A DNA stretch of 32,857 nt from NCBI GenBank assembly GCA_017447745.1, contig JAFSMW010000171.1:1-32857 (forward strand), in the 5' to 3' direction. Below the pieces are notes generated by a model that saw nothing but the letters and a program-made list of their open reading frames with translations, was not told where the DNA came from and searched no databases. The position numbers and the translations under genes were made by a program. Positions 8,901 through 28,314 of the stretch are shown one piece after another. Each line of letters begins with the position of its first letter. Position 1 is the stretch's first letter. The DNA is from Thermoguttaceae bacterium. Lineage in GTDB: Bacteria; Planctomycetota; Planctomycetia; Pirellulales; Thermoguttaceae.

Positions 8901-11900
8901 GATTCGTCCTGACCCTTGACGGCAAACAGAGCGTCGTCGTCAGCCGTGTAAGCTTCGATAACGTACCAGTAGGTGTCGTCAGCGTCGGCGGCTTCTTGCC
9001 AGTTCAGTTCAATCTGGTGCAAGCCGGTGGCGTCGGCAATGAGAGTAGTCGGCGCGTACGGGGCTTCCTTGGTCGTGGCGTCGGCAGCGTCGGAGAATTC
9101 CGAAACGAGCATGCCGCCAGCGTTGCCGGATTCGGACAACGTCTGAACGATGAACGTGTAGGCGGTTCCCGGTGTGAGGTTTGTAACAGTGTATTCGGTA
9201 GCGTCGGTGGTGTAATAGGTCCAATCGTTGCCAAGCTGAACGCCCAAACGATAGCCGGTAACCCAGTCGTTATCGACAGCGTCCCAGGTAACGACGATTT
9301 GAGTGGATCCGTTGACTCCGTCGTTGACCGGCGCCGCTTCCAGATTCTCCGGAGCTTCCAGGCGCTGGAGCGTCAAGGACGCGGTATCGGAGCTGGCGTA
9401 ATTTTCGCTCTGATCGCCGCGGGCGTAGACGGTAATAGTCGTGGAGGCGTCCGTTGCGATTTCGTCCGTTGTGAGGTAGGTTTCGTCCTGAGCGTTGCCG
9501 TCGACAACGTATTCAACAGCGTGATCAACGTCGTCCCAGGAAACGACTGCTGTGCCGTCCAGGTTGTCTTCCCACTGAAGTACCGGAGCGTCAACGGCTG
9601 TCGGCGTAACGCCGGTCGCGGTGGCGCTGGAAGGAGCGTAAACCTGTTCTTCGCCTTCGGCGATAATCTGGAACGTGTATTCTGTGGAAGCGTCCAAGCC
9701 GGAAATGATAACGGAATCGCCGTCGAATTCCAGACCCAGTTCCGGGAAGTTGTCTTCGGTCAGTTCGACGAAATCGGTTCCGTCAAACATGTACAGCGTA
9801 TAGTCAATCGCTTCGTCCGGCAGCGTCCAGGAAACTTCGAGCGTATCGGTTGTGAATTCTGTTACAAAGACGGAATTGACGTCCAGTTCGGGCGCGTCGA
9901 GCTGAATGAGCGTGGAGAACGCCTTCGGATCGCTCCAGTCGGAATCGACGTACAGACGAGAGTTGCCAGTCGCCTTGACTCGGAACAGGTATTCAGTCGC
10001 TTCATCTAGGCCGGTAACGCCGAGCGTGTTGTCGTCGGAGTAGAAGACCTGAGCGTCCGTCCAGTCCGGTCCAACGGTGGGATCGGGCGCAACAATCATT
10101 TCGATAACGTAACGGGACGCGCCGTCGGATTCAGTCCAGCTGATGTCGAGAGTGGTCAGCGAGTTCTCGAATTCGTCGTTGATAACCGGGATGTCGAGAA
10201 CGGTCTTGGTAGATGTAACAGCGGTAACCCAATCGGAGTTAAGCAGGTAATCGTCGCCTTCGCCGGTGTATCCGTATTCGCTCAAAGAACGCCAGTTGAT
10301 CGTGTATCCTACGCTTTCTTCCAGGCCGTTGATCGTGTAAGCAGCGCCCCAAACGCCCTTCTTTTCGGAAAGGGTAACGCCGCCGTCGCCCGGTTCAACG
10401 TACAGAGTTGTAACAGCATCGGGGTCGTCGGTGGGATAGTAAACGATTTCGTACGCGACAGCGCGCGGGTCAGTAACCCAGGTGATAGTAATAGCCGTTT
10501 CGGACTGCGGAGCGGCTTGCGGGTACTTGGGCGTCCAGATCTGTTCGCGAGTGGTTTCCTGAGTCGAAACCCAATCGGCGGAATCCAGATAATCGATTCT
10601 ATCGCCAATGCCAAAGACGGCGAAGTCGTACAGCGTTCTGCCCGGTTCCAGACCTTCGACGGTCCAGGTGTAACGCATCGTGTCAGCGTCGTAGGTAACG
10701 CCGTCCGGCAGATTGTTCATGTTAAACGGCGTGTCGATAACCGTCCAGTTGGCGTCTTCGTCAGCGTCGGAGGCGAGCTTGTAGCGAACCATGTACGTAA
10801 CCAGGTCGCTTTGAATTTCTTCGGAACCCCAGGAGAAATCGATTGCCGTCAAACCGGCTTCGTCGGGCTGAGCCAACGCGGACGGAGCGAGCGATTCTTC
10901 GTTGAGACGAACGGCGTTCGATTCAACCGCGCCGATATCGACAACGTCGTTGATAATGCGGTCGGTTCCCAACAGGTCAAGGGACATGTCAACCAGCAGG
11001 TATCGAGACGCGTAATCGCTAACGAAATCGTTGTTGCCAGCGTCGACAATATTGACGTTGTCCGCGTAAATCTTGTAGTTGCCGTCGGTGAAGGTTCCTT
11101 CTTCAGCGTCCCAGAACGGGAAGATTTCCGTCCAGTCTTCCAGAGTCGTCAGGTTATAGTTATAACCTTCTACGTCGTCGAAGTAAAAACCGCTGCGGAC
11201 GAAATCTGTTTCGTTGTAAATCGTGTTGACGACGTACCCCTCTGAACGATAGAGAGAAATCGTATCGAGAATCGTCGAGTTGACGATGAACGTGTCTTCC
11301 CAGCGGGCGGTCAGACCGGTTGCTTCTGCGGTCAAGCCTGTGTAATTGTCGTCCTGAGAATTGACGTCGCCGTATTTTGTCGCGGCAGTCGCTTCCTGAC
11401 CGTAAATGAGCGTGGAGAACAAGACGGTCGTAGCGTTGTCGGCGTAAATGCCGGCAATGGTCGCGCTGACGTCGCCGTGCTTGGAGTAGGCGTCAAGCGT
11501 GTTTTCCGCAATGACGGTGCGGGAGACAGCCGTTCGACCGGAGGTTTCTTCGCCGTTTCCTTCCGTATAAACGACGGCAAAGGTGGCGTTGACGTCTCCG
11601 TGAACGGCGTTGACAGTAACAGTGTTGTTGACAAATCGGCTGTTGACGATTTCTGTCACGCCGCCGAGGTTGGCGACAGCGGCAATGGTAACGTTGAGAT
11701 TTGCATCGTCGTAATCTTCAAATTCGTAAGCGCTGAAGTCAAACCAAATATTCTCGAACGCGCAGTCTTCCAGATACAGGTATCCTTCGTTGACAATCAA
11801 AGCGTACGTGTTACTGTCGCCGTAGCTGTCTTCCGGAGCGAAGCCGAAATCGCCGGTGAACGTTACGCCCGTCAGGCTCAAAGCGCCGTCGTTGACAATG

Positions 11901-13506: not shown

Positions 13507-14379
13507 ATGAGTTCAGGAAATAAACTTACGAAGTCGTTCGTTGGCTCGTACTGCTTGGTGAAGTTGATAAACACCGGACAGTCGTGCCAGTTATGGCAGG
13601 CGCAAAATCCGAAGACGGGGCAGTTTGTCGCGCTCAAGCGTCTGTTACCGGAGCGACGTCGAGTTACCGAAGAAATCGAACTGCTCAAAAATGAGTACGC
13701 TGTCGGCATTAAGCTCAAGTCGAAGCTTTGCCTTACACCGATTGAGTTTGCAACGGATAGCCGCGGCGATCCCTTTTTGGCGTTGGAATGGTTTACCGGC
13801 GTAAGTCTGAAAACGCAGCTCGAAAGCGGTATGAAGCACTTGGGCTGGCGTCTCCCAGACGTTATTCCTCAGATGGTTCAAGCCTTGGCGGACGTGCATA
13901 AAAAAGGTTATGTCCATCGAGACGTTAAACCATCCAACTTTATGCTTAACGCAGACAACGAAGTTCGTCTTATCGACTTTGCCATTGCGCTAAAGGTCGG
14001 TTTTTTTGCGTCGATGTTTCGAGGCAAACTAAAAATTCAGGGAACTCGCAGCTACATGTCGCCGGAACAGATCCGGGCGCTGCCGTCTTTGGATACGCGA
14101 GCGGACATGTACAGCCTGGGCTGCACATTTTTTGAACTGTTTTCCGGGCGTCCTCCGTACGTTGGAGGTCGAGATGAAGTGCTTCAAATGCATTTAACCG
14201 GACCTGTTCCCAGCGTGATTGAGCATAACGGGAACGTTTCAAAGCCCTTTAACGACGTTATTCGTAAAATGATGAGCAAAAATCCTGACAACCGATTCAA
14301 GTCCATGTCGGAACTGCTCGAAGCGTTAAATAAAATCAAACTGTTTATTCACACACCATTAAAACCATTGGAAAATTAG
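13507..14379 (+). CDS. Small Hanks-type Ser/Thr protein kinase with DFA instead of DFG
   Basis: A 290-residue cytoplasmic protein that is almost entirely a kinase domain (residues ~15-278). Visible elements: VALK with K44, the catalytic loop HRDVKPSN (H137-N144), SPEQ activation-segment end (~185-188), and DMYSLGCTFFELFSGRPPY in subdomain IX. Departures from consensus: the glycine-rich loop is degraded (INTGQSC), and the magnesium-binding motif is DFA (D157-F158-A159). D139 and K44 remain, so activity is possible but not certain. No membrane segment or sensor domain. The stop codon TAG is part of the first AATTAGC unit of the following heptamer hairpin. The nearest neighbour in the same direction is accA; no functional link is evident. 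Confidence 0.85.
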   Translation: MSSGNKLTKSFVGSYCLVKLINTGQSCQLWQAQNPKTGQFVALKRLLPERRRVTEEIELLKNEYAVGIKLKSKLCLTPIEFATDSRGDPFLALEWFTGVSLKTQLESGMKHLGWRLPDVIPQMVQALADVHKKGYVHRDVKPSNFMLNADNEVRLIDFAIALKVGFFASMFRGKLKIQGTRSYMSPEQIRALPSLDTRADMYSLGCTFFELFSGRPPYVGGRDEVLQMHLTGPVPSVIEHNGNVSKPFNDVIRKMMSKNPDNRFKSMSELLEALNKIKLFIHTPLKPLEN

Positions 14380-14450
14380 CAATTTGCAATTAGCAATTAC
14401 GCAAAGCGCTTCAATAATTGCTAATTGATAATTGACAATTGCTAATTATT
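14374..14450. repeat. Heptamer hairpin element 1 (AATTAGC family)
   Basis: The left arm (14374-14399) is built of AATTAGC/AATTTGC units, the core is CGCAAAGCG (14400-14408), and the right arm (~14411-14450) is the inverse, AATTGCT/AATTGAT/AATTGAC. The kinase stop codon lies in the first unit; the accA ATG is 7 nt beyond the right arm. Confidence 0.85.
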
Positions 14451-15420: not shown

Positions 15421-15421
15421 A

Positions 15422-15515
<94 letters not shown>

Positions 15516-15519
15516 TACA

Positions 15520-16533
<1,014 letters not shown>

Positions 16534-16536
<3 letters not shown>

Positions 16537-16705
16537 GCAGTAGGCAGTAGGCAATAGGCAGTAGTTAGTGGTAAGTGGAAAGTGGTAAGTGGTTAGTGGT
16601 TAGTAGGAACGGCGCTTGCGTCCTTACCACTTACCACTAAAAACTTACCACTGTTTTTCGCTTGCGTCCTAAGCGCTAAGCGCTAAGTACTTTTATGCAC
16701 TCGTA
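16534..16705. repeat. Composite heptamer element 3 (TAGGCAG array plus TTAGTGG/TAAGTGG hairpin)
   Basis: A TAGGCAG array (from the pyrD stop, 16534-16563) runs into TAAGTGG/TTAGTGG units (16564-16607), the core GGCGCTTGCGTCC (16611-16623), inverted CTTACCA units (16624-16652), a second CGCTTGCGTCC (~16659-16669), and TAAGCGC twice. The TAGGCAG part has no inverted partner here, so this is a composite or partly deleted element. Confidence 0.85.
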
Positions 16706-17702: not shown

Positions 17703-18631
17703 GGCGTTTTATCTAACATCCGTTTGAAAACGCGCGCCATGTGAACGTAACTCGGAAACCCCGCCATGAGCGCAATTTGCTCTATTTTTATGTTTGTCTG
17801 CTGTAAGAGAGTTATCGCCCGATAAATTCGGCAGCGATGGATCTCGTCACGAATTGTTCTGTGGAGTTCTTTATTGAAATATCGTTCCAGCGTCCGACGC
17901 GTAACGCCCAATTTGCTCGCCAAACGTTTTATATCAATTTCCTGATGTCCCCAGTTCCAAATCTCCCGACACGCCATTTGAATTATCTGCGTAGCGGCTA
18001 ACGAATTGGAAGCTGGAATTTGCGCGTTAAGTTCGTCTCCCCAATCTTCATTTCCTGAACCTGAAAGCTGAGCGCTTTGTACAGTTCCTATTTCAATGAG
18101 TATACCCAACAAATCCGTCGCATATAACGGCGAGTTTACCTGAGGCGAATCCAGAACCTTGCTGCACAGCTGTTCCATTCGACTTTTAATTTTATTGCCA
18201 GACGATAACGTATTGACAACGGGGCGTCGAGGATCAAGAACGCCGTTTTGCGTTAATGAATGAATATACGGACCGTTTGCCGTTATCCAGACGTCTTTCC
18301 AGCCAACGTCCTTGTCGGGAATAAGCTGATGTTCAGAGCCAGGAAAAAGAATAAACAGGTCGCCTTTTTTTACCGTCAGACAGCCGCCCAAGTCGGAGAT
18401 GTATTCCCCAGCTCCGTCTGCGATATATATGAAAACGTATTCCGGAAGAATCCGATTTTTATACTGTTCCAAACGATACAGTTCAGGACGTCCATCATTA
18501 ATAAAAGCGCGTCCTGGCTGCATATCGTCATACCCTGCCCCGGTAACATACAGATTCCATTTCAGTTCTTTTTCTGAAATCGGGAGGAAATTGGCTCTGG
18601 ACGGCGAGGCATTTGGGTGAAAAAAGCTCAC
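17684..18631 (-). CDS. AraC-family transcriptional regulator with cupin-like N-terminus
   Basis: A 315-residue regulator. The first ~150 residues look like an AraC arm/cupin ligand-binding domain (YIADGAGEYISDLGGCLTVKKGDLFILFPGSEHQL). The C-terminal ~100 residues are an AraC double helix-turn-helix, with RLASKLGVTRRTLERYFNKEL and IALMAGFPSYVHMARVFKRMLDKTPSEFR. It starts with GTG at 18631, overlapping the TGA of the upstream ATPase gene by 4 nt (GTGA), so translation is probably coupled. A sugar-type ligand is usual for this family but no target operon is adjacent. A regulator coupled to a GspE-like gene is odd and may mean co-regulation or only shared transcription. Confidence 0.88.
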   Translation of the reverse strand: MSFFHPNASPSRANFLPISEKELKWNLYVTGAGYDDMQPGRAFINDGRPELYRLEQYKNRILPEYVFIYIADGAGEYISDLGGCLTVKKGDLFILFPGSEHQLIPDKDVGWKDVWITANGPYIHSLTQNGVLDPRRPVVNTLSSGNKIKSRMEQLCSKVLDSPQVNSPLYATDLLGILIEIGTVQSAQLSGSGNEDWGDELNAQIPASNSLAATQIIQMACREIWNWGHQEIDIKRLASKLGVTRRTLERYFNKELHRTIRDEIHRCRIYRAITLLQQTNIKIEQIALMAGFPSYVHMARVFKRMLDKTPSEFRS

Positions 18632-20871
18632 TTGGCTTCAAGAATCCGCTTCAATTCCTGAACGGACGTTATTCCTTTTGCAACAAGCACATAACCTTCT
18701 TCTCTCAAAGAACGGTTTCCGTCTTTAGCCGCCGCCTTTTGAAGCAGTTCCAGTTTGGGAGCTTTTCTCAAAACTTCCTGAACTGTCGGACCGACAAAGA
18801 GAACTTCCGTAATTGCCGTTCGTCCCTTGTATCCAATGCCGTGACATTCAGAGCAGACTTCTTCGCCTTCCGCGGGTTTAGCTGGGGGCTGATAAAGCGT
18901 AACCTCTCGTCCGGCGGGGAATCCCAACGCCTGAGCCAGCGCCGGCGACGCCTTAAAGGGCTGTTTACAATGATTGCACAGCTTCCGAACCAAACGTTGA
19001 CAGACAACCACTTTAACGTAATCGGCAAATTTTTCTCTCGATATCGGATTGCCGTCAGCGTCTTTCAAGATAAGCATTCGGAGCAACGCTTCCGAGGCGT
19101 CTTGAGCGCGAACGGTTGTAACAATCAGACGATCGTCCATTGCCATTTCCTTGAAACATTCAGAAAGAATGGCGCCGTCCAAATCCTGAATTACGGACAC
19201 CGCCGGTTCTTTAAGGAAGAATCGCTTCATGACGTCCCTAATGGAGTCCGAGTCTGAATACGTGGTAACAGGAATGTTTTCGACAACCTCGTGCGGATTG
19301 GATTCCTTGTCCAACTGAGCATACTCTCTTTGGAACCGGTCGGTTTTATTCAAAGCGACGCTGAGCGTTGTTTTCATGCCGTTGCCGACAGGCGCCGAGA
19401 AAATCAATATTCCCTTGGGAAGGTCGAACATGGGCTGAACCCTTTCAGCCAGTTTGTCTCGCATGCCGATGTCTTCCAGAACGTGGAAATCCATTTTGGG
19501 AGCGGAAAATTTAATCAGAACCCGTTCTCCGGTTTGAGTTCCCTGGGAGGTAACGGTAATAATGGCCTTTCGTTTTCTTTCCTCTGGCTGAGGCAAATCT
19601 TCTTTCGCCCTTCGCAGCTCTTCTTTTAGCTTGCGACGTTCAACATAATTTTCATCGCTGTCCTCTTCCATGAGTTTGTCATATCGTTCCTGCATTTGAC
19701 GAATCGCCAGACGTTCGTCCGGGAAGTCGTATTGATACGTAAACTCCACTTCGCATTCGCCAGACTGCTTTGTGCGTCGGTCTTGCGGATTCATGCCGCA
19801 CAGAATTTTCAGAGCTTCCAGAGCCGGATCGGCGGTTTCTCGTTCCATCTGCTCGCCCGGATGCCAAACCCCGTCAAGAAGATGTTTAACTGCAACGCCA
19901 TTAGGAACAAAATCCAGCATGGACGCTTCCGGCTGATTGGTCATCAACTCCGCAATCATTTTTCGCGCTTCCATAAAGCCTTCATGAGCGTGAGCCTGAA
20001 TTCGACGCATTTCTCTCTGACGTTCAATCTTGGTGTATGACGTCAACGTCGCCGGGCAGCCGGTTGTAAACTTGTCTTTCGCTTTCGGGTCAACCTTGAC
20101 GCCAATTTTGCTTATTCTTTCAGCAAAGAAATGACGTAAGTGCTCCCGGGTAAATACCATGTCTGCCGGGTTCATGTCTTCGTTGCGATAACGAACGTAC
20201 ATCACAAACGGAACCAGATACGCCAAAATAACGAGCGTTATTCCCAGCCAGTACCATGGCAAAAGCAGCGCGACGGCAAACGCCCCCACGAACGCTCCAA
20301 CCGCAATCGCATTCCACTTTCTCCAGTCCTTTTTGAACTGAACGGCGTCAGCGCTAAGCCAGTCTGTTGACTTCACCCAAAGCAGATAGAAGACTAACAA
20401 CACTACGATTTTAACTATGTTGAAATATCCGCCGCCTTTCAGTTTGACAGACTTTAACGGAGCGCCCGGATCCGCCGCAGGCTTTTGTTCCGCCTCCTCT
20501 GAATCAGAACCCTCTTCATTCGCTTCGGCGTTTTCCGCATTACCCTCCGGATTTTCAGAATCAGCAGCAGACGCGTCCGGATTCCCGTTTTCTTCCGTCG
20601 TTTGAGCTTCTTCGTTCGCTTCGGCGGCATCGGGAGCCGGCTGTTCAACGGCGTCATGAAAATCTGCTGGCGCCTCATCTCCCAACGACGGATGATCTGA
20701 ATTGTCAGCCGCGCCTTCGTTATCAGTCGCTGGCGCGCCCTCTTCCGCAACTTGCGTCGACTCGTCGTTCAGTTCATCAAAAATTCCAGCAGCGTTTGAA
20801 GTCGACGCCTGAAGCGACAAAAACATCGCAACAGCTATCGTAAAAATCAAATGGATAAAAAAACGTTTCAT
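18628..20871 (-). CDS. Membrane-anchored, divergent GspE/PilB-family ATPase with disrupted P-loop
   Basis: 747 residues. Order: signal-like segment (1-28), acidic Ala/Glu/Asn-rich stretch (30-135), hydrophobic segments (~150-166 and ~187-228), then a GspE/PilB-like domain (~240-747). The late part is recognisable: VVCQRLVRKLCNHCKQPF with C632/C635 and CSEC (C673/C676) as the zinc tetracysteine, then GIGYKGRTAITEVL. The usual GPTGSGKTT P-loop reads APVGNGMKTT (493-502), with Met between the last Gly and K500. The Walker B site reads VIQDLDGAI instead of VGEIRD. It is therefore either a non-canonical or a regulatory paralogue. It is followed by an overlapping AraC gene and preceded by pilT on the same strand. 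A signal peptide on this cytoplasmic ATPase family is unexpected. Confidence 0.8.
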   Translation of the reverse strand: MKRFFIHLIFTIAVAMFLSLQASTSNAAGIFDELNDESTQVAEEGAPATDNEGAADNSDHPSLGDEAPADFHDAVEQPAPDAAEANEEAQTTEENGNPDASAADSENPEGNAENAEANEEGSDSEEAEQKPAADPGAPLKSVKLKGGGYFNIVKIVVLLVFYLLWVKSTDWLSADAVQFKKDWRKWNAIAVGAFVGAFAVALLLPWYWLGITLVILAYLVPFVMYVRYRNEDMNPADMVFTREHLRHFFAERISKIGVKVDPKAKDKFTTGCPATLTSYTKIERQREMRRIQAHAHEGFMEARKMIAELMTNQPEASMLDFVPNGVAVKHLLDGVWHPGEQMERETADPALEALKILCGMNPQDRRTKQSGECEVEFTYQYDFPDERLAIRQMQERYDKLMEEDSDENYVERRKLKEELRRAKEDLPQPEERKRKAIITVTSQGTQTGERVLIKFSAPKMDFHVLEDIGMRDKLAERVQPMFDLPKGILIFSAPVGNGMKTTLSVALNKTDRFQREYAQLDKESNPHEVVENIPVTTYSDSDSIRDVMKRFFLKEPAVSVIQDLDGAILSECFKEMAMDDRLIVTTVRAQDASEALLRMLILKDADGNPISREKFADYVKVVVCQRLVRKLCNHCKQPFKASPALAQALGFPAGREVTLYQPPAKPAEGEEVCSECHGIGYKGRTAITEVLFVGPTVQEVLRKAPKLELLQKAAAKDGNRSLREEGYVLVAKGITSVQELKRILEAK

Positions 20872-20878
20872 GGATTGT

Positions 20879-21064
20879 TAGGGAATAGGGAGTGGGGAAT
20901 AGGGAGTGGGGAATAGGGAATAGGGAGTAGGGAGTGGGGAGAAGGGAATAAGTTATTAGTGGTTAGTGGTTAGGACGCAAGCGTTCATCTAACTTACCAC
21001 TTACCACTTACCACTTACCACTCTCTAAACTATTACCTATTCCCCATTCCCTATACCCTATAAT
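20879..21064. repeat. Nested heptamer hairpin element 4 (TTAGTGG inside GGGAATA/GGGAGTG)
   Basis: The outer left arm has GGGAATA/GGGAGTG/GGGAGTA units (20879-20950) and the outer right arm is the inverse, CCTATTC/CCCATTC/CCTATAC (~21030-21064). Between them sits a complete second element: TTAGTGG units (20955-20973), core GGACGCAAGCG (20973-20983) and inverted CTTACCA units (20990-21022). The pilT stop adjoins the outer right arm; the GspE-like ATG lies 8 nt from the outer left arm. Confidence 0.9.
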
Positions 21065-22206
21065 TACAAAATACCCGGGGCTTTAACTTCAATGCCCTTG
21101 ATCGCCATTTTGAGGGCTTCCTTGTTGGGAGCGACTTCCATGGCGGTTTCGCGGTCAATGAGCTCTGCGTCAATTAGGTCTTTGAGACTCTTGGTAAAGT
21201 CCTGCATGCCCTCTTCGTATCCGATTCGAATCGCATCCGCCAGCTTTTCGTCTTCCCCTTCGAGAATCAGCTTTCGAATGGTCGGGTTGATCATCATGAT
21301 TTCGCAAGTCGGGACGCGCTGAACGCCTTCTCGAATGGACGGCAGCAACTTCTGAGCGACAATCCCCTTGAGATTAAACGCCAAGGCGGAACGCAGCGCA
21401 CGATGCATGTTTTGTGGGAACAAGTCGAGAATACGGCCAATTGTCGACGGGGCCGTGGAAGCGTGGATCGTTCCGAAAACAAGGTGCCCGGTTTCGGCGG
21501 CGTGAATGGCGGTTTCGAACGTTTCACGGTCTCGCATTTCGCCGACGAGAATAATATCCGGGTCTTCACGAACCGCGTGCTTCATCCCGGTCATGAAGTC
21601 GATGACATCCTGACCGATTTCTCGCTGGTTGATCAGGCACTTGTCTTCAGTAAACGTGAATTCGATCGGGTCTTCCAGCGTCAAAATGTGTTTCTTATAT
21701 CGATGGTTAATCCAGTCCAGCATGGACGCGATGGTCGTACTTTTTCCGGAACCGGTAATTCCCGCCAAAAGAACCATGCCTTGTGAGAACTTGCACAATT
21801 CTTCCAAAACCTGCGGCAAAAACAGCTTTTCAAAGACCGGAATCGAGTTGTTGACCTTTCGGGCAACCAGTCCCAGACGTCCCATCTGATTAAGAATGTT
21901 TACACGAAAACGCCAGACAAGATCGTCCACTTTGACAATATGAGCGAAGTCCGCGCCGCCGGTTTCCTGAAGAATCTTGCGGTTGCGTTCGTTCATGAAC
22001 TCGTACAGAATTCGGTCCATTTCGTCTTCGTCAATCGGACCGCGATTGAGAGCCTGCAGCGCTCCGGCGACGCGAAGCATCGGCGGACGCCCTACTTTGA
22101 GGTGCAAGTCGCTGCCCTTGCATTTAACCAGAGCGCGAAAGAGACGGTCAATTTCGTATTCTTCTTTCCGAACATACGGGGGAATATTACTGGGTTCTGA
22201 TGACAT
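21064..22206 (-). CDS. pilT: Type IV pilus retraction-type ATPase PilT
   Basis: A 380-residue hexameric ATPase that depolymerises type IV pili at the inner membrane. The N-terminal PAS-like part (GSDLHLKVGRPPMLRVAGAL, ~31-50) is followed by Walker A GITGSGKST (149-157), the acidic box ILTLEDPIEF, Walker B DIILVGEMRD (217-226) and the His box HLVFGTIHAS (241-250), all canonical. The C-terminal AIRxG stretch is less typical than the AIRNLIRE of proteobacterial PilT. Length is slightly above the usual ~345-370. It lies directly upstream of the divergent GspE-like gene on the same strand, so the two may serve one pilus machine. No pilin or PilB is visible in this window. Confidence 0.93.
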   Translation of the reverse strand: MSSEPSNIPPYVRKEEYEIDRLFRALVKCKGSDLHLKVGRPPMLRVAGALQALNRGPIDEDEMDRILYEFMNERNRKILQETGGADFAHIVKVDDLVWRFRVNILNQMGRLGLVARKVNNSIPVFEKLFLPQVLEELCKFSQGMVLLAGITGSGKSTTIASMLDWINHRYKKHILTLEDPIEFTFTEDKCLINQREIGQDVIDFMTGMKHAVREDPDIILVGEMRDRETFETAIHAAETGHLVFGTIHASTAPSTIGRILDLFPQNMHRALRSALAFNLKGIVAQKLLPSIREGVQRVPTCEIMMINPTIRKLILEGEDEKLADAIRIGYEEGMQDFTKSLKDLIDAELIDRETAMEVAPNKEALKMAIKGIEVKAPGIL

Positions 22207-22221
22207 GAGTATTGAATAAAG

Positions 22222-22336
22222 TTAGGAGTGAGGAGTGAGGAGTTAGGAGTTGGACAGCAGTGGTAAGTTTTGAGTGGTAAGTGGTAAGGACGCAAGAGCT
22301 GCTTACCACTAACTACTGCTTCTTGCCTACTGCCTA
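22222..22336. repeat. Composite heptamer element 5 between hisF and pilT
   Basis: GAGGAGT/TTAGGAG units (22222-22250) are followed by AGTGGTA units, the core GACGCAAGAGC (~22289-22299), inverted CTTACCACTAACTACTG, and CTTGCCTACTGCCTA. The hisF stop TAG on the minus strand is the first three bases of a TAGGCAG unit. The GAGGAGT arm has no inverted partner. Confidence 0.85.
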
Positions 22337-26762: not shown

Positions 26763-26862
26763 GGGAGTTGGGAGTAGGGAGTAGTTACAAGTTTTAGTGG
26801 TTAGTACGCAAGCGCTCATCTAACTTACCACTTACCACTAACTACTTGCCACTCCCTTATTT
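26763..26862. repeat. Nested heptamer hairpin element 7
   Basis: Outer GGGAGTT/GGGAGTA units (26763-26785) are paired with ACTCCCTTATT at the far end (~26851-26862). Inside are TTAGTGG units, the core ACGCAAGCG (26806-26814) and inverted CTTACCACTTACCACTAACTA. This is the same nesting of the same two families as at 20879-21064, but shorter. Confidence 0.85.
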
Positions 26863-27222: not shown

Positions 27223-28314
27223 ATGAAAAAAATGTTCGGTTTGTGCGCCGTAATTACGCTTATTGGCTGCGGCGTCGTTTTTTCAGATGAAGTCAAATCA
27301 ATTGTAGAGCAAAACGATTCCCCAGACGCCGCTAAAGCTGTCGATTCTGCAATCAGCGCTTCAGAAGCTCAGCCCGTTCAGGAAGCTCTGCCAGAAGAAG
27401 AGGCAGCGCCAAAACAGGAAGCGCTTCCAGAACAGGCAGACTCTTCGGTTCCCGCTCAATCAGAAATCATAGAAGAATCTCTCTCGGAACCCTCTCAGAC
27501 CATTCAGCCGGAAACCCCTGTACAGTTTATCATTGGGGTCATTGCATCGCCGGTCCCGCCGATGGTTCGAGCGCAGATCAATTTGCCTGGAGATTCCGGA
27601 TTGTTTATTCAAACAATTAAACCCAACGGACCAGCCGCCAAAGCAGGCGTTCTTCCGTACGACATTATCGTCTCAATTGACGGCGTTGTCGTTTCTGACT
27701 CAAACGACCTCGCTGCTGAACTTCAAAAAGCTGCTGGCAAACCTCAAAAATTAACGGTCTTACGTCAAGGAAAAGAACTGACTTTAGACATTACCGCTCA
27801 GCCGGCAGAGGCGCCTCGCCAACCTCACAGTCTGCTCAATGGAACTCAAATTATCCCAGCGCCTCAGCCCTTTATTGATCCCTTGGCTCCCAATTACGAC
27901 CCGGATGAAGACGAAGACGAACCAGCATTCCCCAGATTTCAACGCTTCATGGATCGTCAGCGTCAGCAAATGGAAATCATGCGTCAACGCATGGAAGCCA
28001 TGGAAAACGCCATGCGTCAGGGCATGCCTGGGTTTATGCCATTCCCCGGTCCTGATCCCCAAGCTCCAATGCCCACGCCAGCTCCCGCTCCCAACGGCGC
28101 TTTGACTCTGCCCCCGCCGCAACTTAACATTCCAAACGGGCAAGCTCAAACCAATTCTTTTTCCGTTCAGATTCAAAAGAATGGAAACGCCCCGGCTGTC
28201 ATTAAGGTTCAGGATAACGATGATGAATACATTGTCGACGAAAACACCATTGATCAGCTGCCCGAAAACGTCCGAAAACGTCTGAATTTTAAAGTTCAAA
28301 CCGACGATAAATAA
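27223..28314 (+). CDS. PDZ-domain lipoprotein
   Basis: 363 residues. The signal segment ends in LIGC (C16), a good lipobox, so the protein is probably lipid-anchored outside the inner membrane. A Glu/Pro/Ala-rich linker (~25-100) is followed by one PDZ domain (~103-188; GLFIQTIKPNGPAAKAGVLPYDIIVSIDGVVV), a Gln/Met/Arg-rich helix (~245-268), a Pro-rich spacer and a short C-terminal domain (SFSVQIQKNG...VRKRLNFKVQ). No protease domain is present, so it likely binds C-termini of other envelope proteins. ACGGAG lies 11 nt before the ATG, one of the few clear Shine-Dalgarno sites here. A hairpin with a T-run ends the unit. Confidence 0.82.
   Translation: MKKMFGLCAVITLIGCGVVFSDEVKSIVEQNDSPDAAKAVDSAISASEAQPVQEALPEEEAAPKQEALPEQADSSVPAQSEIIEESLSEPSQTIQPETPVQFIIGVIASPVPPMVRAQINLPGDSGLFIQTIKPNGPAAKAGVLPYDIIVSIDGVVVSDSNDLAAELQKAAGKPQKLTVLRQGKELTLDITAQPAEAPRQPHSLLNGTQIIPAPQPFIDPLAPNYDPDEDEDEPAFPRFQRFMDRQRQQMEIMRQRMEAMENAMRQGMPGFMPFPGPDPQAPMPTPAPAPNGALTLPPPQLNIPNGQAQTNSFSVQIQKNGNAPAVIKVQDNDDEYIVDENTIDQLPENVRKRLNFKVQTDDK

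Follow-up and report, generated by a model that had tools for sequence, protein, structure and literature searches.

Nested heptamer-repeat hairpins in a Thermoguttaceae genome: comparison of related species suggests replacement of the hairpin middle between retained outer arms

Comparison of tandem heptamer-repeat elements in a Thermoguttaceae bacterium and its relatives suggests that a hairpin within a hairpin arises by swapping the middle of an older hairpin, the outer arms of which are retained. The window analyzed here (the whole stretch of DNA studied, 32,857 nucleotides) contains at positions 20879-21061 two GGGARTR heptamer arrays (family A) that are inverted relative to each other and enclose a complete TTAGTGG hairpin (family B), as seen from the sequence, its inverted repeats and its tandem arrays (Table 1). 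This composite occupies the interval that separates two T2SSE-family (PilT/PilB-like) genes, both on the minus strand (21064-22206 and 18628-20871); position 21064 is the stop of the neighboring gene, and the outer right A arm stops at 21061. A single fold of the minus-strand transcript of 20879-21061 pairs both sets of arms, with an energy of -75.1 kcal/mol compared to -44.6 +/- 3.9 for shuffled sequences (z -7.85). An earlier note had described this place as a hairpin within a hairpin with both pairs of arms still matching, and the sequence, inverted repeats, arrays and fold all bear this out. For a second composite the same note had claimed the same arrangement at 26763-26862. The order is again A outside B at 26763-26858, but the arms match only in part, since the outer right arm is cut to a short remnant, and the element folds less strongly than the first one (z -2.61). 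The A arms, e.g. at 20881-20950, carry a GGG run every 7 bases, and by analogy these runs could form G-quadruplexes, which have been shown for related repeats (PMC4692102).

Table 1. Positions of heptamer-repeat features in the window
Feature	Position	Strand	Remark
First composite, outer left arm, family A, about 10 GGGARTR heptamers	20879-20949	+	first 4 units match the G001 orthologue
First composite, inner B unit, whole	20950-21022		
First composite, inner left arm, family B, AAGTTAT and TTAGTGG heptamers	20950-20973	+	
First composite, B-unit core GACGCAAGCGTTCATCTA	20974-20991	+	identical core in many B units
First composite, inner right arm, family B, ACTTACC heptamers	20992-21022	-	
First composite, junction CTCTAAA	21023-21029	none	common to other A(B)A copies
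First composite, outer right arm, family A, 4.5 heptamers	21030-21061	-	unit number and GGGGAAT unit as in the G001 orthologue
Second composite, outer left arm, family A	26763-26784	+	
Second composite, B hairpin	26794-26853	+	left arm 26794-26805, core 26806-26822, right arm 26823-26853
Second composite, remnant outer right arm ACTCCC	26851-26856	-	about 6 bp
Simple A hairpin, ordinary TTCGCC..GGCGAA-type loop	23116-23206	+	un-nested form
One-sided composite, C arm outside B hairpin	16534-16666	+	
Mosaic of G, B and C arms	22220-22336	+	
Simple C hairpin	15421-15515	+	G003 site empty
Simple E hairpin	14374-14450	+	also in G002
D array and C hairpin, in frame in dihydroorotate dehydrogenase gene	15879-15982	+	absent in G002 and G003

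The short tandemly repeated repetitive (STRR) sequences of cyanobacteria are tandem heptamer repeats, and in the STRR-like manner tandem heptamer arrays are far above chance here. Repeat counts were taken from sampled stretches totaling 416 kb of the source genome (G000), where 125 exact period-7 tandem runs were found, compared to none in a Markov shuffle, and thus the arrays are not a chance product. The period-7 repeats of these 416 kb fall into approximately 91 clusters. Read on the left arm, the main families fit the formula AG-N5: A (AGGGAAT), B (AGTGGTT), C (AGGCAGT), D (AGTTGCG), E (AGCAATT), G (AGGAGTG), and H (AGTAATT). Four units is the most common arm length (median 28 nt). As for terminal inverted repeats of the MITE kind, the picture is mixed: the arms are inverted in 96 of the 97 opposite-strand neighbor pairs (96 inward and one outward), but 27 of these 96 join unlike families; the other 69 are same-family pairs, compared to 17.5 expected by shuffling, so that matched hairpins are the rule. 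Stacked arms also exist, e.g. C+ A+ B+ core B- E-. A strict 7-nt register at all family switches was considered and holds only in part: offsets 0 and 4, that is, a kept register or an AGT overlap (the latter spotted post hoc), account for 20 of 29 same-strand family junctions. The TTCGCC..GGCGAA loop is identical at many A elements, and A arms with a loop of their own are widespread. Two arrays of 9-nt repeats lie in inverted orientation at 406-503 (ACGAAATAT / TTTTTCGTG) and look like a heptamer hairpin with period 9, and a similar period-9 inverted array was found within a heptamer site in G003.

The earlier note had proposed the inside/outside order of composite elements as a test. Whole-genome pattern searches in four related species (G000 and its relatives G001, G002, and G003) yielded 30 distinct sites with A outside B, as counted after manual merging of overlapping hits (6 in G000, 16 in G001, 0 in G002, and 8 in G003), and no A hairpin inside a B hairpin in any of the four genomes. 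The reverse pattern gave three matches, all rejected because they are not A hairpins within B hairpins. The order is consistent in this sense, but the 30 sites are not independent, since the inner B unit is itself a dispersed copy. This unit, 73-78 nt in length, is approximately 89-96% identical between loci, with identity up to 94-96% at several unrelated ones, and near-identical B units occur at unrelated loci within A arms, within C arms, or in neither. In G000, B units are mostly solitary in unique DNA. By eye, approximately 23 of 52 touch other heptamer arms; 5 of these are matched on both sides, 3 are unmatched on both sides, and 15 are one-sided.

The order of events can be approached through orthologous sites. 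We extracted 128 alleles of 40 loci from up to four species (G000-G003), which gave 78 comparable pairs; many of the compared composite loci were picked by similarity to 20879-21061. At the latter site, the A arms recur in G001 with an ordinary A loop between them; G002 carries a different heptamer element there and G003 an unrelated repeat, so the direction here rests on two species. At locus 5, A(loop)A is the state of both G003 and G002; in G001 the same arms enclose B, giving A(B)A, and nothing of the loop remains. All four species lie at almost the same distance from one another, and the least supported split is that of G000+G001 versus G002+G003. Because G002 and G003 are thus not favored as sisters, the A loop is probably ancestral at this locus. 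Part of the match between A arms is expected from family membership, since the A heptamers have few variants.

Counted over all pairs, an edge is kept and the core changed in 12 of 78 at the middle threshold (8 loci), compared to 3.5 expected from non-orthologous controls, and in 15 compared to 7.1 at the loosest threshold; both edges are kept around a changed core in 3 pairs, compared to 0.26 in the controls. The reverse state, a kept core with both edges changed, was observed in 0 of the 78 orthologous pairs. Taken alone, the 15:2 ratio of pairs with a kept edge to pairs with a kept core is weak, since the controls lean likewise (286:63); what carries the claim is the excess over these controls. 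The pair thresholds were fixed after a first look, and pairs within one locus are non-independent. In 50 of 78 pairs neither edges nor core are in common; complete turnover is thus frequent and could mask other routes. One gene gap often holds a wholly different hairpin family in each species, e.g. at 16534 and at L077:6358. An element replaced by half is seen in G001 at L071:3377, where an A left arm with an A loop is joined to the C right arm of the relatives.

The earlier note had left two options for the nested elements, insertion into a hairpin loop or growth of new arms from the core outward. What survives of them is that the inner part is probably newer: the outer arms persist around differing insides, and no pair keeps its core with both edges changed, which together disfavor outward growth. 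Plain insertion into the loop does not quite fit either, as the loop is gone and not split. The absence of a loop remnant and of a target duplication, the mosaic junctions, and the mostly one-sided B contacts point to loop replacement or exchange rather than clean insertion. The whole account that we prefer, in which the A arms are older than the B unit, the A loop was replaced by B, and the exchange was anchored in the arms, has in our judgment about an even chance of being correct, judged from the sequence comparisons above. It would start from a simple A hairpin with tandem A arms around the TTCGCC..GGCGAA-type loop. A complete B unit of 73-78 nt would later take the place of this loop, the switch lying at the arm/loop boundary or close to it. 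The swap may proceed via ectopic recombination, gene conversion or template switching, for which the heptamer arms could supply homology or microhomology, being alike across loci and with AGT/TAG words common to the families. One switch point would then produce a half-replaced element with unlike arms, and two switch points a nested element.

Targeted transposition is a possible, if doubtful, alternative, in which B would be a MITE-like unit moved by a putative transposase with a preference for hairpin loops or AGT/TAG words, and the A loop would be lost during insertion or afterwards. Such a unit would be dispersed, of fairly constant length and mostly alone in unique DNA, as B is; several heptamer-element loci have precise empty sites; and approximately 23 of 52 B units touch heptamer arms though heptamer elements make up only an estimated 2% of the DNA. 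However, an excess of abutting repeats, the expected trace of target-site duplication, is absent for the A, B and E hairpins and weak for C, the A loop is unsplit both at locus 5 and at the 20879-21061 site, one-sided composites are the majority, and the six Y1 transposase genes (PF01797) of this genome adjoin other repeats. The transposase search was confined to this Y1 type; each of the six genes lies amid its own palindromic repeats of other sequence, and we rejected them as the mobilizer of the heptamer hairpins for this reason. No heptamer hairpins were found beside the Y1 genes in 3-kb loci, save a short A-like remnant downstream of one. At one of these loci (L125, G000:C90, Y1 gene 10037-10384), a REP-like element CCGTGGGTTAAAACCCACGG..GAACCGCTAACGCGGTTC stands in tandem on both sides of the gene; copies of it also occur inside heptamer elements (L065:8204-8371, L071:10572-10760, L072:15682-15930, and L080:8501-8680). 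The other five Y1 genes, at L124, L126, L127, L128, and L129, are each surrounded by palindromic repeats of their own sequence. A history of loss, in which A(B)A is ancestral, spread as a whole and later lost B in the relatives, seems improbable. Junction words such as CTCTAAA are indeed common to A(B)A copies at several loci, which implies that composites, or at least their insides, spread. The relatives, however, show the ordinary TTCGCC..GGCGAA loop and no bare deletion, and deletion of B cannot rebuild a loop, which moreover is present at locus 5 in two species not favored as sisters.

Two further explanations invoke growth of the arms. If a putative template-repeating polymerase added heptamers to both 3' ends of a break in a telomere-like manner and the ends were joined at the core, the 96:1 inward polarity, the unlike-family arms, the one-sided stacks, and the outer-before-inner order would all be accounted for; yet complete units, alike in core and arm variants, turn up again at unrelated loci, which requires copying of units, and we regard such inward growth as very improbable. 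Addition of new arms outside an older B hairpin is scarcely credible: the outer arms do vary in length (10 units on the left and 4.5 on the right at 20879-21061), and locus 15 has a shared core with one differing outer arm, but edges are kept above control and cores with two new edges are missing from the 78 pairs, A arms are widespread with their own loop, and locus 5 contradicts it. It is also unlikely, in our estimate, that a dedicated system builds or edits the hairpins, whether by templated AG-N5 addition from both sides of a break or by site-specific core exchange at the arm/loop boundary; templated addition of the telomere-like kind, if true, would produce both the inward polarity and the unlike arms.

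Whatever their origin, 18 of 98 heptamer elements lie deep within long ORFs, and 32.5% of the remaining ones have a start codon at most 20 nt away, compared to 6.6% of random non-coding windows, with start-codon positions derived from ORFs and not from annotation. The elements are thus mostly intergenic and near start codons, as are the STRR-like repeats described previously (PMC4679880). At 15879-15982, the dihydroorotate dehydrogenase of G000 carries an extra peptide with the reading frame kept, and G002 and G003 have a few residues at this place. Another heptamer array lies in frame within a gene at 2950-2981, and at L077:6837 the species bear different heptamer families at one position of a coding sequence. 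Since the elements are approximately 5-fold enriched near start codons and some are inside genes, their turnover may rewrite leaders and protein linkers.

The A-hairpin pattern was found in 2 of 392 genomes of the phylum and the C-hairpin pattern in 1 of 147 genomes of the order, the source genome included, using strict patterns that miss diverged forms; the system thus appears nearly genus-specific in the sampled genomes. The sole other genome of the phylum sample with an A-type hairpin (L231, G239:C117:931-982) belongs to a distant planctomycete, the assembly of which measures 2.2 Mb. Among named genomes, the exact B core occurs only in two Thermoguttaceae MAGs, RGIG7588 and RGIG2232, and the host genus includes Thermoguttaceae MAGs from ruminant gut. 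No Rfam match was obtained anywhere in the window. The segment 27075-27167, a stretch of approximately 92 bases located upstream of the ORF at 27223, recurs in related genomes in dozens of copies with 84-91% identity and likewise has no match in Rfam.

Heptamer repeats are known in scattered bacteria, and some copies of the Rickettsia palindromic elements lie in frame within genes, adding a peptide. The in-frame element at 15879-15982 with its empty orthologues behaves similarly, which is a likeness of behavior and not of membership, as the present elements have tandem heptamer arms and most copies are intergenic. The REP/REPIN sequences associated with RAYT (Y1) proteins are likewise dispersed intergenic hairpins (PMC3733652, PMC3116915), and the source genome has such systems; however, the link to Y1 is lacking, since its Y1 genes adjoin other palindromes. 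In architecture, the BOX elements of Streptococcus pneumoniae are similar: they are small, composite and interspersed, with co-folding outer modules around an inner part that varies, and they affect neighboring genes when transcribed (PMC3049150). The outer modules of BOX are fixed, whereas here every part, outer or inner, consists of heptamer arms and can be interchanged. Heptamer repeats of the TAACTGA type have been described in Beggiatoaceae, Cyanobacteria, and Bacteroidetes (MacGregor 2015, PMC4679880), where the count for the BOGUAY genome is 169 direct sets and a single indirect one, and GGGNATC-type repeats in Xanthomonas and Nostoc (Rehm 2015, PMC4692102). The G-rich repeats of the latter study appear similar to family A. 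In a search whose coverage of subscription journals was thin, we found no literature on such repeats in Thermoguttaceae, nor any description of nested exchange among inverted and interchangeable heptamer arms. With the published heptamer repeats the present ones share units of 7 nt in few to many copies, a mostly intergenic location, often just upstream of start codons, and a patchy distribution; they differ in forming inverted pairs around a conserved core, in having many interchangeable families, and in being stacked and nested. As the four related species provide sites with kept outer arms and an exchanged inside, the succession of steps behind a nested repeat can here be read rather than guessed.
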